Source: Leptolyngbya sp. CCY15150
GTDB taxonomy: Bacteria; Cyanobacteriota; Cyanobacteriia; RECH01
Length of the DNA: 64,000 nt
Assembly: GCF_016888135.1 (NCBI RefSeq)
Contig: NZ_JACSWB010000218.1
Span: 62,001 to 126,000, forward strand
Direction of reading: 5' to 3'
Below the pieces are notes generated by a model. That model worked only from the letters and a program-made list of their open reading frames with translations, was not told the DNA's origin and did no database searches. Position 1 is the first letter of the stretch, and every line of letters begins with the position of its first letter. The translations under genes were made by a program, and so were the position numbers. Shown here piece by piece: positions 55,787 through 63,552 of the stretch.

Positions 55787-58540
55787 ATGACAGACATCTT
55801 TCTCTCCTACTGTCGTCGCAACAAAGAGTTTGCGGTTAGGCTGCACCATTATCTTATTCAGTCGGGCAAGACTGTGTGGGTAGACTGGAACGATATTCCA
55901 CCCAATGCCGACTGGCGGTTAGAAATTGAGGAAGGTATCCAGAAAACCCATACGGTCATTTTTATATTAAGTCCAGAATGGTTGGCATCCTATGAATGCA
56001 ATGTGGAGTTAGACAAGTCCGTTGCTCTGAATAAGCGATTGCTGCCTATTGTTTGCCAGGATGTGCAATACAAGGATGTTTCTCCGACTTTAGCGGCACT
56101 CAACTGGATCTTTTTTCGAGAGACGGATGATTTTGAAACAGCCTATCAAGCGCTGCTCACGGCCTTAGATACAGATCTAGACCATGTAAAATACCACACC
56201 AAATTATTGGCGCGATCGCTGGAATGGGATAAGCGCGATCGCGACCCTAGTTTTCTGCTTCAGGGATCGCTGTTGACCGAGGCGGAAATGTGGCTGACCA
56301 CGTCCCAGGGAAAAAATCCTTTACCCACCCAGCTTCAGTCTGAATATGTGGTCACCAGCAGCCAAAAGCGATCGCAACGGCAGCGGATTACGATTATCGG
56401 CGCAACGGTGGGCTTTGTAATTGCCTGTGGATTAGCGATGACTGCCTTTGTGCAGTATCAAGTGGCGGAGCGAGAACGACGTTTCGTGGAAGAACTGCAA
56501 ACGGCGACGCTGAGTGAAACGGCTAGGGCAACGTTTGCAACCCATGATCAACTCCGAGGCTTATTGGCTAGCGCCAAGGCCAATATCCATCTAGCTGAGC
56601 TGGGATGGATCACCTCAGATAACCCTATGCATCAAAGCACGGAAGATAATCTCAGATATCTATTTCAGTTGATAACTGAACAAAATCGCATGGAAGACCA
56701 TGTTGACCTGATCACAAACCTGCATGTGAGACCGGATGGACAAATGGTTTCGTCTACGAGTGCAGATAACACCATCAAGCTCTGGCGTCCGGATGGCAGT
56801 TTGGTGGCAACCCTTGAGGGACATGAGGGAACGGTATGGACAGCCATTTTTTCCCGCGATGGGCAGCGGCTGGCTTCGTCTAGTGATGATGGAACGGTGA
56901 AAATCTGGAGCGTTGATGGTACTTTACTGAATACCCTGACCTATGATGCGCCCCTATGGAGTGTGGATTTCAATGCAGCTGGCGATACCTTAGCGATCGC
57001 TTCCGCCGATTCAACCATTCGCTTAGTTGACCTAGAAGGGAATGAGCTACGACGATGGTCTGTTGGGCAAGATAAGGTGTTTAGTATTCGCTTTTCACCC
57101 GATGGCCAGCAACTTATCTCTGGTAGTGGCGATAAAATTGCGCGCCTTTGGAACTTAGACGGATCGTTATTGCAGTCCTTTGAAGGGCATGAAGGCGAAA
57201 TCTGGGCCGTACGCTTCTCGCCGGATGGGAAACGCATTGCAACTGCCAGCGCTGACGATACCTTACGGCTCTGGGATATTCAGGGCAATCTCTTGAGAGT
57301 TCTGGAAGGGCATACCTCTGGAGTGATCAGTGCAAATTTCAGTCCCGATGGCCAGCGCTTAGTCTCGGCTAGTGCCGATCATACGGTGCGAGTTTGGTCT
57401 ACAGAAACGGGCCTGCTGATCGACACCTTCCGCCATTTGGATATTGCTTCTGGAGCGGCATTTTTTGATCGAGATACCGTTGTGTCAGGTAGCTACGATA
57501 AAACACTGCGGGTCTGGAATATTGCTGGAGAATTGCACCAAAATATTCAAGGGCATGATCGGCGGGTGCTCAGCGTTGCGGTCAGCGGAGATGGGGAGGC
57601 GATCGCTTCCACCAGCACCGATACCACCATCCAAATCTGGCGACGGAATAATCAGAACTTTTTTACCCAAGAGCTAACCATCACTCAACCTCAAGGCATT
57701 CCTAATGCGGTGAGCTTGGATGCGACCGGTGATTTGATTGTAGTCGGTGGTTCTGACGGTCAACTTTATCTATGGAATCGCCAAGGTGACCTCCTGCGCA
57801 CCGTGAATGCCGATACTCAAGAGGTGCTGAGCGTTCATATCTCTCCTGATGGTCAATGGATTGCCTCCGCAGGAGATGATAAGATTATTCGGATATGGAC
57901 GAGGCAGGGAGAGTTGGTGCGAGAGCTATCAGGACATCGAGAAGGGGTGCGTACGGTAACCTTTTCGCCCGATAGTCAATACCTAGCCTCTGCTAGTAGC
58001 GATAATACGGCGCGGATCTGGACGCTGGAAGGAGAGTTAGTTCATACCCTGGAAGGCCATCAGGCAGGTGTCTATAGCGTATCCTTTTCGCCCGATGGCC
58101 AGCGCCTAGCCTCGGGAAGTATGGATAATACCGTCATTCTTTGGTCGATGAAGGGCGAACTGTTGGAACAGTTTACGGCCCATCGTTCAGGGGTGACATC
58201 GGTTAGCTTTAGCCCTTCCGGTGAGATGTTAGCATCTGGCAGTTTTGATAATACGGTAAAGCTTTGGTCTCCAGATGGTACCTTATTGCAAACCCTAGAG
58301 GGACATCAGCAACGGGTGGCAGCGATCGCGTTTAATCCTGATGGTGATCGTCTGATCTCGGGTGCCGCCGACCGGGTGGTGAAGGTTTGGGATGTGACGG
58401 CAATCCCCGCCACTCCCCTGACCCGCACCGAGTTAATCGACCAAAGCTGTCAGTGGTTAAGTGACTACCTGCGCCACAACCGTCATGTTTTAGAGAGCGA
58501 TCGCTCCCTTTGCTCTGGTCGTGCCGGCGTTGCTGAATGA
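55787..58540 (+). CDS. TIR domain - transmembrane - WD40 repeat protein
   Basis: The 917-aa protein has a TIR domain (residues 1-140: IFLSYCRRNKEFAVRLHHYL, KTVWVDWNDIPP, VIFILSPEWLASYECNVELD). The Glu at residue 74 (CNVE) corresponds to the catalytic Glu of NAD-cleaving TIR domains. A helix at about 200-224 spans the membrane, then a helical linker. About fourteen WD40 repeats (from ~300), each with SPDGQRLASGS-type strands and an ending such as VKLW, fit two seven-bladed propellers. TIR-WD40 proteins occur in cyanobacteria and may be defence, cell-death or signalling proteins. ATG at 55787. Confidence 0.88.
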   Translation: MTDIFLSYCRRNKEFAVRLHHYLIQSGKTVWVDWNDIPPNADWRLEIEEGIQKTHTVIFILSPEWLASYECNVELDKSVALNKRLLPIVCQDVQYKDVSPTLAALNWIFFRETDDFETAYQALLTALDTDLDHVKYHTKLLARSLEWDKRDRDPSFLLQGSLLTEAEMWLTTSQGKNPLPTQLQSEYVVTSSQKRSQRQRITIIGATVGFVIACGLAMTAFVQYQVAERERRFVEELQTATLSETARATFATHDQLRGLLASAKANIHLAELGWITSDNPMHQSTEDNLRYLFQLITEQNRMEDHVDLITNLHVRPDGQMVSSTSADNTIKLWRPDGSLVATLEGHEGTVWTAIFSRDGQRLASSSDDGTVKIWSVDGTLLNTLTYDAPLWSVDFNAAGDTLAIASADSTIRLVDLEGNELRRWSVGQDKVFSIRFSPDGQQLISGSGDKIARLWNLDGSLLQSFEGHEGEIWAVRFSPDGKRIATASADDTLRLWDIQGNLLRVLEGHTSGVISANFSPDGQRLVSASADHTVRVWSTETGLLIDTFRHLDIASGAAFFDRDTVVSGSYDKTLRVWNIAGELHQNIQGHDRRVLSVAVSGDGEAIASTSTDTTIQIWRRNNQNFFTQELTITQPQGIPNAVSLDATGDLIVVGGSDGQLYLWNRQGDLLRTVNADTQEVLSVHISPDGQWIASAGDDKIIRIWTRQGELVRELSGHREGVRTVTFSPDSQYLASASSDNTARIWTLEGELVHTLEGHQAGVYSVSFSPDGQRLASGSMDNTVILWSMKGELLEQFTAHRSGVTSVSFSPSGEMLASGSFDNTVKLWSPDGTLLQTLEGHQQRVAAIAFNPDGDRLISGAADRVVKVWDVTAIPATPLTRTELIDQSCQWLSDYLRHNRHVLESDRSLCSGRAGVAE

Positions 58541-60855: not shown

Positions 60856-63552
60856 CTATGGTTGGCTGAGGGATGATTGACCCATGAGGGTAAATGCCGC
60901 CCAGTCGCGGGAGCTAGGATAGGTTTCCATTGTGGTTAACATCGCTTGGCGCAGAGCCTGAGCTGAGTCTGGTGTTTCAGCCAGGTGTCGGTAAAACTCT
61001 GTCATCAGGAGAGTGGTAGAATCATCGGGCACTGCCCATAGTGAGACAAGAACGCTATTGGCTCCAGCCGCCATAAAGGATCGAGATAACCCTAAAACTC
61101 CATCACCCGTAATCCGCCCTCGTCCTGTATCACAGGCGCTCAGGACAACCAGATCCGCAGATAAGCGTAGCTCTAAGATTTCTCCAGCGGTGAGTAAGCC
61201 ATTGTCGCTCCTGGATGGGGCAAGGGCGATCGCTCCCGGCAACCCTACTTCGCCTAAATCATCGAGAAGACCGTGAGTGGCAAGATGGATCACCTGTGCC
61301 TCTCCCATCTGCTGCACAACTCGCGATTCGGTAGCTTCTGCTCCTAGGAGAGGATCGGTATCGAGAAAAGCGGCAATTTCAATCGCTTCCTGCTCAGCAT
61401 TGGGCAGCGGCGAGAGGGGCAGCGGTGGTTGTCCAACGCTAGGCATCTGGGGATTGCCGACAATCAGAGAGGTTGGGGAAATAGGTCGCGACTGGGTGAG
61501 CGCTAACACCTGGATCGATGGCGCGGTGGTCACCGTATGCCGTTCAATCAGATAACGTCCATCCTCGTCTTGCAGGGCAGCAAAGGGTAACAGAAACAGG
61601 GAATCATGGGGAATAATAATGACATGGCTGGTCGGATCATCAGGTAAAAATGACGCAATGGGATCAATCAATAAACGATGAAACGACTGCAGTTGTGGAT
61701 TCTGGCGTCGAGTCGGAGATGTAGGAGATGGCGGCGATTCAACAGCCTGTATCGGCAAGGTGAATTCGGGCAAGTCCGCTGGTTCTAGAATGCCGCTCCG
61801 GGTTTGCTGGACTAGAGATGTCCATTGAGGATCTTGGCGTCCCCGTCCCAGGGCGGCAGCAACCCGAGTTTCTTCTGCGGCCATGTTTAGGGTCAGATCG
61901 CTGGAATTGAACTGCACCAGTTGAAACTGGATTTCACCAGTGGGTTGAATCACCCAAATAGCCAACTCCGCTGATGAAAGAATGGAATATTGAATGATCG
62001 TGGCCTGCTGTTGACGAGCGATCGCTTGTATATCCGATAAACTGGGCGGCGGCACCTGTAGGGAAGCGGCGATCGCTGGCGATTGACGATTTGCCACCAG
62101 TTCGATGAACGTTCGGGCCCGCCCCCGCTCCGACATTTCCAGGGCATCATCATAGCGGTTGAGGCGAATCAGCGCCCGCTGGAGCAACTGATAGGTGGAC
62201 ACTTGGGTTTCAAATAATGACACCTGATCCTCATCCTGCAGCCCCGGACGCATGGACTCCCACACTTCAACGGCATCCTTCAAATACACCACAGATTGTT
62301 CATAGTCTGCTTGGTTGAAGTAAAAAGCACCCAGATAATCTAGCGCCAACCCCTGACGGCGCAGATCGCCCGTTTCCACAGCCAACTGCAAGCTTTGCTC
62401 GTAGTAAGATAAAGCCTGATTGGATTGACCTAGCTGTTCCGCCATTTGCCCTAGATTACCCAAAGCCATAACCTGTCCATGGCGATCGCCCAAGGTTTGG
62501 GATAGCTCTAGACTTTGTTGATAGGCTTGGATAGCCAGATCATTCTCTTGGAGGTCGGCATAGATATTGCCCAAACTGTTGAAACCCGTGGCCAATCGAG
62601 GGCGATCGCCTAAGGTTTGCAATTGATCGAGGGCAAGCTGTAACTCTGGCAAGGCCCGATCCATCTGTCCTAGATGACGATAGGCCAGGGCTAGGTTACC
62701 TTGGTTGTAGGCCTGTAGGCGTGGATCGCCCAGTTGTTGGGCGATGACCTCAGTTTGTTGATAATAGTCCACAGCTCGCTCAGGATTACCCAAATCTAAA
62801 TAAAGATTGCCTAAACGTTGAAGTACTATGGCCTCGCCCTGTCGATTGCCCTCTTGTCGCACTAACGCTAGGGTGACTTCATAACGATCTAGGGCTTGGG
62901 GATAGCGGCCGGTCTCTAGATATGCGTTACCTAAATTACCTTGGCTATTAGCCTGCAAGGATAGATCACCAAGCTCTTCTGCGATCGCTAAACTCGCCTC
63001 AAATTCAGCGATCGCTTCATCCATCAGTCCTTGAGCTTTCAGAACAATGCCAATTTGATTCAGCAGATAAGCTTCATCAGCGCGATCGCCTCGGGACTGG
63101 GCTAGGGGTAGACCTCGCCGTAAATAGGTTAGGGCTTGCTCATAGTCTCCATTCCGTTCATACAAATATCCCAAATTTCCTAGGGCATAGCTTTGTCCTG
63201 AGGAATCTTGAATCTCTTCCGCCAAGGCAAGACTTTCTTGGTAGAACGTCAGCGCCGTCTCGGTTTGATAGAGATTCTCATAGGCGCTGCCGAGGTTGGT
63301 GAGTAGATAAACTTCTTGGCGGCGATCGCCCAGTTGTCGATAAAGCTCCAGAGCTTGCTCCCAGGTGGCGATCGCTTCTGTAAACTGGCGATTGTTGTAC
63401 TGCTGCCCTCCCAGGTCAAACAGTTGCCGAGCTTGGGTGGCTAGGGGGGTGGCAACGTCAGCCGGACGAGCCAGGCTGGGTGGGAGAATGAGCAGACTAC
63501 CCAATCCCGCTAGGAGTACACTAAGCCCTAAGCTCCAATGCGATCGCGCCAT
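60856..63552 (-). CDS. secreted TPR-CHAT protein
   Basis: The 898-aa protein has a signal peptide (MARSHWSLGLSVLLAGLGSL, cleavage near residues 29-30), about ten TPR repeats (residues ~45-440; for example RRQEVYLLTNLGSAYENLYQ), and a C-terminal CHAT protease-like domain (about 600-890). The CHAT catalytic pair is present: His in HLATHGLLDD (about residue 759) and Cys in LSACDTGRG (about residue 806). CHAT domains are caspase-like proteases. ATG at 63552. Divergent from a trypsin-like protease gene 245 bp away. Confidence 0.9.
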   Translation of the reverse strand: MARSHWSLGLSVLLAGLGSLLILPPSLARPADVATPLATQARQLFDLGGQQYNNRQFTEAIATWEQALELYRQLGDRRQEVYLLTNLGSAYENLYQTETALTFYQESLALAEEIQDSSGQSYALGNLGYLYERNGDYEQALTYLRRGLPLAQSRGDRADEAYLLNQIGIVLKAQGLMDEAIAEFEASLAIAEELGDLSLQANSQGNLGNAYLETGRYPQALDRYEVTLALVRQEGNRQGEAIVLQRLGNLYLDLGNPERAVDYYQQTEVIAQQLGDPRLQAYNQGNLALAYRHLGQMDRALPELQLALDQLQTLGDRPRLATGFNSLGNIYADLQENDLAIQAYQQSLELSQTLGDRHGQVMALGNLGQMAEQLGQSNQALSYYEQSLQLAVETGDLRRQGLALDYLGAFYFNQADYEQSVVYLKDAVEVWESMRPGLQDEDQVSLFETQVSTYQLLQRALIRLNRYDDALEMSERGRARTFIELVANRQSPAIAASLQVPPPSLSDIQAIARQQQATIIQYSILSSAELAIWVIQPTGEIQFQLVQFNSSDLTLNMAAEETRVAAALGRGRQDPQWTSLVQQTRSGILEPADLPEFTLPIQAVESPPSPTSPTRRQNPQLQSFHRLLIDPIASFLPDDPTSHVIIIPHDSLFLLPFAALQDEDGRYLIERHTVTTAPSIQVLALTQSRPISPTSLIVGNPQMPSVGQPPLPLSPLPNAEQEAIEIAAFLDTDPLLGAEATESRVVQQMGEAQVIHLATHGLLDDLGEVGLPGAIALAPSRSDNGLLTAGEILELRLSADLVVLSACDTGRGRITGDGVLGLSRSFMAAGANSVLVSLWAVPDDSTTLLMTEFYRHLAETPDSAQALRQAMLTTMETYPSSRDWAAFTLMGQSSLSQP

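Follow-up and report, generated by a model that had tools for sequence, protein, structure and literature searches.

The window, a stretch of 64,000 nucleotides, encodes on its forward strand (55787-58540, +) a protein of 917 amino acids with a TIR domain containing Glu74, a membrane helix and a fourteen-blade WD40 region, and the family of TIR receptors to which it is assigned is nearly confined to genomes that encode, in addition, a protein related to the ADP-ribose-sensing part of animal TRPM2, here the LSDAT protein. The best explanation, to which we give about an even chance (roughly 0.5), is a pathway in which a TIR receptor sensing outside the cytosol would act through an LSDAT sensor of the ADP-ribose type and a SLATT effector. 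It builds on what was observed of the domain layout and conservation of the protein, of the co-occurrence of the genes and their operon linkage in relatives, and of the homology between LSDAT and TRPM2.

Architecture of the TIR-WD40 protein

The Pfam family TIR_2 (PF13676) matched residues 4-124 (E=5e-25), and the TIR domain, predicted to be cytosolic, was assigned to residues 1-125 (55787-56161, +), with the putative catalytic Glu74 (codon 56006-56008, +) lying within the motif CNVE. It is followed by a conserved helical linker (residues 126-199; 56162-56383, +) that is repeated together with the TIR in tandem relatives, by one strong hydrophobic segment at about residues 203-221 (56393-56449, +), where the top-scoring 19-residue hydrophobic window begins at residue 203, and by a helical stalk (residues 225-296; 56459-56674, +; helices at 215-295 in the model). 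WD40 (PF00400) matches covered the C-terminal two thirds of the protein (E=1.4e-138), and blade ends spaced 40-45 residues apart gave fourteen blades at residues 298-869 (56678-58393, +), a number that would be enough for two seven-bladed propellers. These blades contain no Cys and are predicted to lie outside the cytosol. The helical tail (58424-58537, +) holds Cys888 and Cys909, a putative disulfide pair conserved in relatives; the remaining Cys are residues 9, 71, 90 and 214.

The full-length AlphaFold2 model (mean pLDDT 89, from a 26-row alignment) showed the same order, with the TIR, helices up to residue 207, a poorly modelled stretch at 203-220 (pLDDT <50), the helical stalk, fifty-odd short strands at residues 298-869 and the helical tail. 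The TIR and linker modelled alone reached a pLDDT of 92 and matched SPARTA TIR, AbTir and SARM1 in Foldseek (AbTir 7uxu, TM-score 0.82 by target length). The layout given by the sequence-only reading, namely a TIR-TM-WD40 protein with Glu74 in CNVE and fourteen blades, was thus confirmed by Pfam, hydropathy, blade ends and the model. Recent blade amplification of the WRAP type was ruled out, since the blades have diverged and the best ungapped pair is only 60% identical at the protein level and 53% at the DNA level.

In paralogues from the same genome and from others, the helix is preceded by three to five TIR-linker modules in tandem; such tandem proteins with one helix are L010, L011 and L056-L063, located on other contigs and in other genomes. 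The catalytic Glu was retained in 28 of 34 tandem modules, and its loss in the other six suggests pre-assembled TIR stacks that mix dead and live copies. Two further proteins of the same genome (L064, L072) place an nSTAND1 domain or a Ser/Thr kinase before the helix and WD40 region, so the helix-propeller part serves several kinds of effector; the nSTAND1-TM-WD40 protein has a tail Cys pair like that of the TIR receptor. In a TIR-TM-WD40 subfamily (L009, L050, L052, L054, L055) the N-terminus is extended by about 110-150 residues; this extension gave no Pfam match in L009, the one member of the five that was searched.

Membrane topology

The sequence-only reading had allowed the protein to sense outside and act inside or the reverse. 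The first orientation, with the TIR inside and the WD40 propellers outside the cytosol (in the periplasm or thylakoid lumen), is well supported if not proven, because of the positive-inside charge bias, the tail Cys pair and the outside-type domains found in relatives, which together disfavour the reverse one.

The charge and Cys comparison began from 84 proteins, of which 13 (9 open-ended and 4 without a helix at the cut-off) and those with fewer than 6 blades were removed, leaving 60 closed members including the window protein. The net charge of the 15-residue helix flanks averaged +2.9 before the helix (inside) and +0.7 after it (outside), and the inside flank was the more positive in 49 of the 60, equal in 8 and lower in 3. 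Cys content was 0.40% after the helix versus 0.89% before it, and the number of Cys was even after the helix in 50/60 members but before it in 26/60. Cys888 and Cys909, the sole Cys after the helix of the window protein, were invariant in 26 aligned rows, and a tail Cys pair was present in 44 of 59 closed WD40 relatives compared with 27 of 2950 random windows.

Among WD40 proteins of the same genome, three fourteen-blade proteins without a TM helix contained 14, 18 and 19 Cys in blades and tail, and the two with an internal helix contained 2 and 3. A low Cys count by itself does not prove export, because nine proteins of 5-7 blades without a TM helix also contained just 0-4 Cys.

Pfam found CHASE2 after the same helix in L061, L062, L090 and L126 and the bacterial SH3 domain (SH3_3) in L149 and L113, with L133 just below the cut-off; these domains and ARC6-IMS we take to be of outside type. 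It is very unlikely that the protein has the opposite orientation, with the propellers as cytosolic scaffolds and the TIR outside, or that the helix is buried in a wholly cytosolic protein. Such arrangements would suit the eukaryotic WD40 propellers, which are usually cytosolic, the STAND-WD40 proteins without a TM helix in the same genome, and the fourteen-blade relative L121, in which no membrane helix was found at the cut-off used, but they fit poorly with the charge bias, the Cys pairs and the C-terminal domains of the relatives.

One further TIR-TM protein, L089, ends after its helix in an ARC6-like IMS domain, a domain known from chloroplast division proteins. A Cache-like region noted by eye between two helices of L053 was not found as such a domain by Pfam, and visual inspection suggested PPC-like tails for L125 and L144 that were absent among the Pfam families listed; the topology argument leaves these three proteins aside.

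Conservation of the putative TIR active site

Family members were gathered from named genomes at 80 loci by TIR patterns that exclude Glu74; most come from cyanobacteria or Chloroflexota, and single records are, by title, of Gammaproteobacteria or Actinomycetota type. The 84 aligned modules comprised that of the window protein and those of 83 ORFs at the 80 loci, a small number of which are incomplete. In all 84, residues E74, C71, S7, Y8 and S68 were invariant, and D33 was retained in 83. The earlier statement that the catalytic Glu is retained therefore extends to the whole aligned family, and the conservation of E74 and C71 is more than chance, because the modules were collected by patterns elsewhere in the TIR. 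By alignment, S7 corresponds to S140 and D33 to D167 of AbTir, both of which are required for NADase activity according to the part of the source consulted (PMC11374754).

The same reading had called the surrounding TIR motifs intact, which does not hold for the Trp of the WxxxE motif. Its position is Glu70 in the window protein (codon 55994-55996, +), and the 84 modules have V in 55, I in 13, E in 8, Y in 6, S in 1 and P in 1, never W. In excerpts of PMC11374754, the change W204A abolished AbTir activity, TcpC withstood the equivalent change, and the Trp is associated with production of cyclic ADPR. As TcpC can do without the Trp and AbTir cannot, it is typical of TIR NADases and not strictly defining. 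Set against TIR NADases as a class, the window protein has the TIR fold and the catalytic Glu on helix C (E74) and lacks the WxxxE Trp. If the TIR is active, a non-cyclic product (linear ADP-ribose or another non-cyclic derivative) is the more likely one, because the Trp linked to cyclic ADPR is missing.

The substitution of this Trp in all 84 modules would also suit a TIR that has lost NADase activity and signals through contacts between TIRs, as the TIRs of most animal receptors do, with Glu74 kept for structural reasons. The loss of the Glu in six tandem modules is in line with such a non-enzymatic scaffold, as is a survey which, in the portion cited, reports that the Glu is common even in those TIR groups for which no activity is known (PMC7075850). 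We consider it unlikely, however, given that the Glu is invariant in the 84 family modules and that the partner LSDAT is a type of domain that binds ADP-ribose.

Similarity of LSDAT to TRPM2

The sole LSDAT of the window genome, a protein of 270 amino acids, matched TRPM2 chains in the PDB and aligned with the ADP-ribose-binding region of human TRPM2 (E=1.4e-8). When human TRPM2 binds ADP-ribose, R358 makes contact with the phosphates and R302 with the adenosine ribose, while Y295 acts as a clamp on the ligand, as given in the part of PMC6759353 consulted. The aligned residues in LSDAT are R214, I168 and W161, respectively. Across 28 LSDAT rows, which include at least 4 repeats of one gene fetched twice, R214 was invariant, position 161 was W in 25 and F in 3, and position 168 was mostly I. 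With R214 kept and the R302 equivalent lost, the ADP-ribose pocket is partly kept.

Co-occurrence and linkage of the TIR receptors with LSDAT and SLATT

In the neighbour survey of 105 ORFs, LSDAT_prok adjoined six TIR genes, and by neighbour clustering 10 of the 80 family loci have an LSDAT gene upstream of the TIR gene and in the same orientation. In L101, L104, L154 and L178 a SLATT/DUF4231 gene lies between the two (order LSDAT-SLATT-TIR). The PADLOC scan of these nearest-neighbour ORFs (134 found, 128 after excluding those >1000 aa, and 105 after 23 more were excluded by hand) gave no family in more than 3 of them, with single matches of Cas12f, Dnd/Ssp, Csx1 and caspase type.

Among 39 relatives, the genomes with LSDAT were exactly the 12 with a match to the TIR family. 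Across 291 genomes of the class, LSDAT was present in 74 and a strong TIR match (E<=1e-30, a threshold chosen after viewing the match list) in 76; 72 genomes had both, 4 only the TIR, 2 only LSDAT and 213 neither (phi 0.946), and Fisher values for this table overstate independence since the genomes are related. At other cut-offs the corresponding counts (both, TIR only, LSDAT only, neither) were 74/86/0/131 (1e-3), 74/24/0/193 (1e-10), 72/11/2/206 (1e-20) and 71/4/3/213 (1e-40), so that at E<=1e-10 no LSDAT genome was without a TIR match, and LSDAT was missing from 24 genomes that have the TIR. The four TIR-only genomes at 1e-30 are G195, G199, G257 and G260, two of them 88% and 78% complete, and the two LSDAT-only genomes (G106, G128) belong to one genus and have weak TIR matches. 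The association of DUF4231 with LSDAT was 68/26/6/191 in the same genomes (phi 0.74), and the control caspase family PF00656, present in 236 of the 291, gave phi 0.28 with LSDAT and 0.29 with the TIR. In a within-genus table limited to genomes with some TIR match, TIR and LSDAT were present or absent together within g24, g70 and g82, with exceptions in g54, g82 and g124.

Outside the cyanobacteria, LSDAT was present in 14 and absent in 6 of 20 family genomes (a sample of 20 of 29 loci); in the class of one of these genomes it was found in 18 of 150 (8 with E <1e-30). LSDAT is also present in Thermotoga maritima. Among the TIR matches listed, at least 14 of the 74 LSDAT genomes had LSDAT within 5 kb of one; gene proximity was therefore set aside as the main link, and emphasis was placed on co-occurrence because few LSDAT genes lie near a TIR gene.

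The window genome encodes several TIR receptors and one LSDAT (G000:C207), together with a SLATT_1 protein of 540 amino acids (G000:C278; E=1.5e-24). These likely partners lie beyond the window, on contigs apart from that of the TIR gene. We propose an LSDAT-associated TIR receptor family, of which the window protein would be a member, having the TIR, linker, membrane helix and predicted outside domain in a genome with LSDAT and SLATT.

Proposed pathway and its alternatives

In the favoured pathway, the protein would be a single-pass membrane receptor with its propellers outside and a cytosolic TIR. A signal received by the propellers, possibly from phage, would alter the packing of the TIRs of adjacent receptors, a change of the kind that TIR enzymes require for activity. 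The TIR would then cleave NAD+ by means of Glu74, giving more likely a non-cyclic product, such as linear ADP-ribose, than a cyclic one, and this product would be sensed by the separately encoded LSDAT, the homologue of the TRPM2 N-terminal region, with the two-helix SLATT membrane protein perturbing the membrane. Several TIR receptors beside one LSDAT look as if many sensors may share one output. Several results count against the pathway, namely the missing WxxxE Trp on which AbTir depends, the lost R302 equivalent, the dispersal of the three genes in the window genome (on different contigs or far apart), the lack of LSDAT in 4 of 76 TIR-strong genomes and in 6 of the 20 non-cyanobacterial ones, the presence of LSDAT in Thermotoga maritima, the low Cys counts of the nine proteins without a TM helix and the apparent lack of a helix in L121.

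The four TIR-strong genomes without LSDAT would agree with a receptor that works alone, in which an outside signal lets the TIR deplete NAD+ and kill or arrest the cell while LSDAT keeps it company for another reason. Glu74, S7 and D33 are all kept, and loss of the cyclisation-linked Trp would suit hydrolysis over messenger synthesis. The near-perfect co-occurrence with LSDAT and the LSDAT/SLATT operons would not be expected from such a NADase, however, which makes it rather unlikely.

LSDAT could also be an enzyme that removes the TIR product, thus an off switch and not a sensor, since SLOG domains comprise both sensors and glycosidases in the part of PMC9503650 cited. We regard this as improbable, because the adjacent SLATT proteins, predicted in the consulted sections of PMC9503650 and PMC7159879 to be nucleotide-responsive membrane effectors, better suit a sensor-effector pair.

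A wider version of the favoured pathway is tentative. There, bacteria would have a transmembrane TIR pathway in which interchangeable outside sensors (WD40, CHASE2 and others) feed cytosolic TIRs whose NAD-derived output converges on a shared LSDAT gating SLATT, and the ligand-binding domain of TRPM2 would be descended from, or a sister of, this bacterial TIR read-out.

Selection and gene neighbourhood

Identity to the window protein is 93% for one same-genus orthologue and 90% for the other. Whole-gene dN/dS was 0.08 and 0.09, that of the TIR taken by itself 0.10 and 0.12, and that of thiC 0.01 in both comparisons; the TIR-WD40 protein, its TIR included, is therefore maintained by purifying selection, yet evolving faster than its neighbour thiC. 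In the G001 orthologue the TIR (window 55787-56161) is only 83% identical, with dS 0.83, and the propellers are 93-97% identical, hinting at local recombination or conversion.

The neighbours in the window are thiC, an aspartase/fumarase-type lyase, a PfkB kinase, CYTH and DUF1802. Between metK and the PfkB kinase, the gene order is fully retained in one same-genus genome; in the other, thiC is still upstream, and a caspase-domain (Peptidase_C14) gene lies directly 3' of the orthologue (G002, L044:6101-7846, -). The effector-type surroundings described by the sequence-only reading were not found, as the neighbours are mostly housekeeping genes in a context shared with one same-genus genome, and the only effector-like one in the window is a CHAT-TPR gene. 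This gene (60856-63552, -) lies 2.3 kb downstream and codes for a CHAT protease domain and TPR repeats, with an N-terminal signal-like segment by eye. A defence-island neighbourhood was ruled out for the window, where PADLOC gave no more than weak TIR matches and one match of WD40/HEAT type. The role in defence or cell death suggested by the same reading would still be compatible with the data.

Comparison with known systems

Searches of an open-access library, which did not cover Burroughs et al. 2015, turned up no account of TIR-TM-WD40 receptors or of any connection between them and LSDAT. The co-occurrence of LSDAT with TIR receptors is new here. The names LSDAT and SLATT and the prediction of nucleotide-responsive pore effectors come from Burroughs et al. 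2015, as cited in passages of PMC13143021 and PMC7159879, and SLATT is likewise predicted as a nucleotide-responsive membrane effector in excerpts of PMC9503650, PMC7159879 and PMC13143021. The bacterial TIR systems studied so far mostly sense infection inside the cell. If the pathway is true, a family of TIR receptors that face outward, found in Chloroflexota and multicellular cyanobacteria and tied to the TRPM2-type sensor domain by co-occurrence, would offer a testable path from an outside cue through an NAD-derived messenger to a membrane response, and would bear on the origin of the ADP-ribose-binding part of TRPM channels. The N-terminal MHR1/2 of TRPM2 is homologous to LSDAT of the window genome; the two differ in that TRPM2 has sensor and channel fused, whereas in the window genome LSDAT and the membrane protein come from separate genes and the R302 equivalent is lost.

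Thoeris (the TIR protein ThsB with the SLOG- or macro-domain protein ThsA) likewise joins a TIR enzyme to a separately encoded nucleotide-sensing domain, and one class of it ends in an ADP-ribose-binding membrane effector, according to the part of PMC11204291 cited. Here, in contrast, the TIR is a membrane receptor with a predicted outside sensor, the SLOG domain is of LSDAT/TRPM type, the effector would be SLATT and the genes are mostly dispersed. Membership of Thoeris was rejected: no thsA effector (SIR2-SLOG or TM-macro) adjoins the gene, whose neighbours are thiC and pfkB, and ThsB families scored below cut-off (NF058526 at 23.5 bits against 220; PADLOC ThsB at best E=0.00063).

Toll-like receptors share the outside repeat sensor, one membrane helix and cytosolic TIR, as described in part of PMC7075850. 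Their layout, an N-terminal LRR ectodomain with a C-terminal TIR, differs in order and repeat type, as the window protein has its TIR at the N-terminus, WD40 in place of LRR and the catalytic Glu kept; no common descent is implied.

The cyanobacterial STAND-WD40 (WRAP) proteins also have fourteen blades in two propellers, and TIR and STAND occur in their context, in the portion of PMC9218822 consulted. The top Foldseek match of the window protein is 2ymu (45% identity), but the protein is without a STAND ATPase and its blades have diverged.

In PknD of M. tuberculosis, a cytosolic effector, one helix and an outside propeller follow one another in the layout proposed here. PknD has a kinase in place of the TIR, and the window genome itself also encodes a kinase-TM-WD40 protein.
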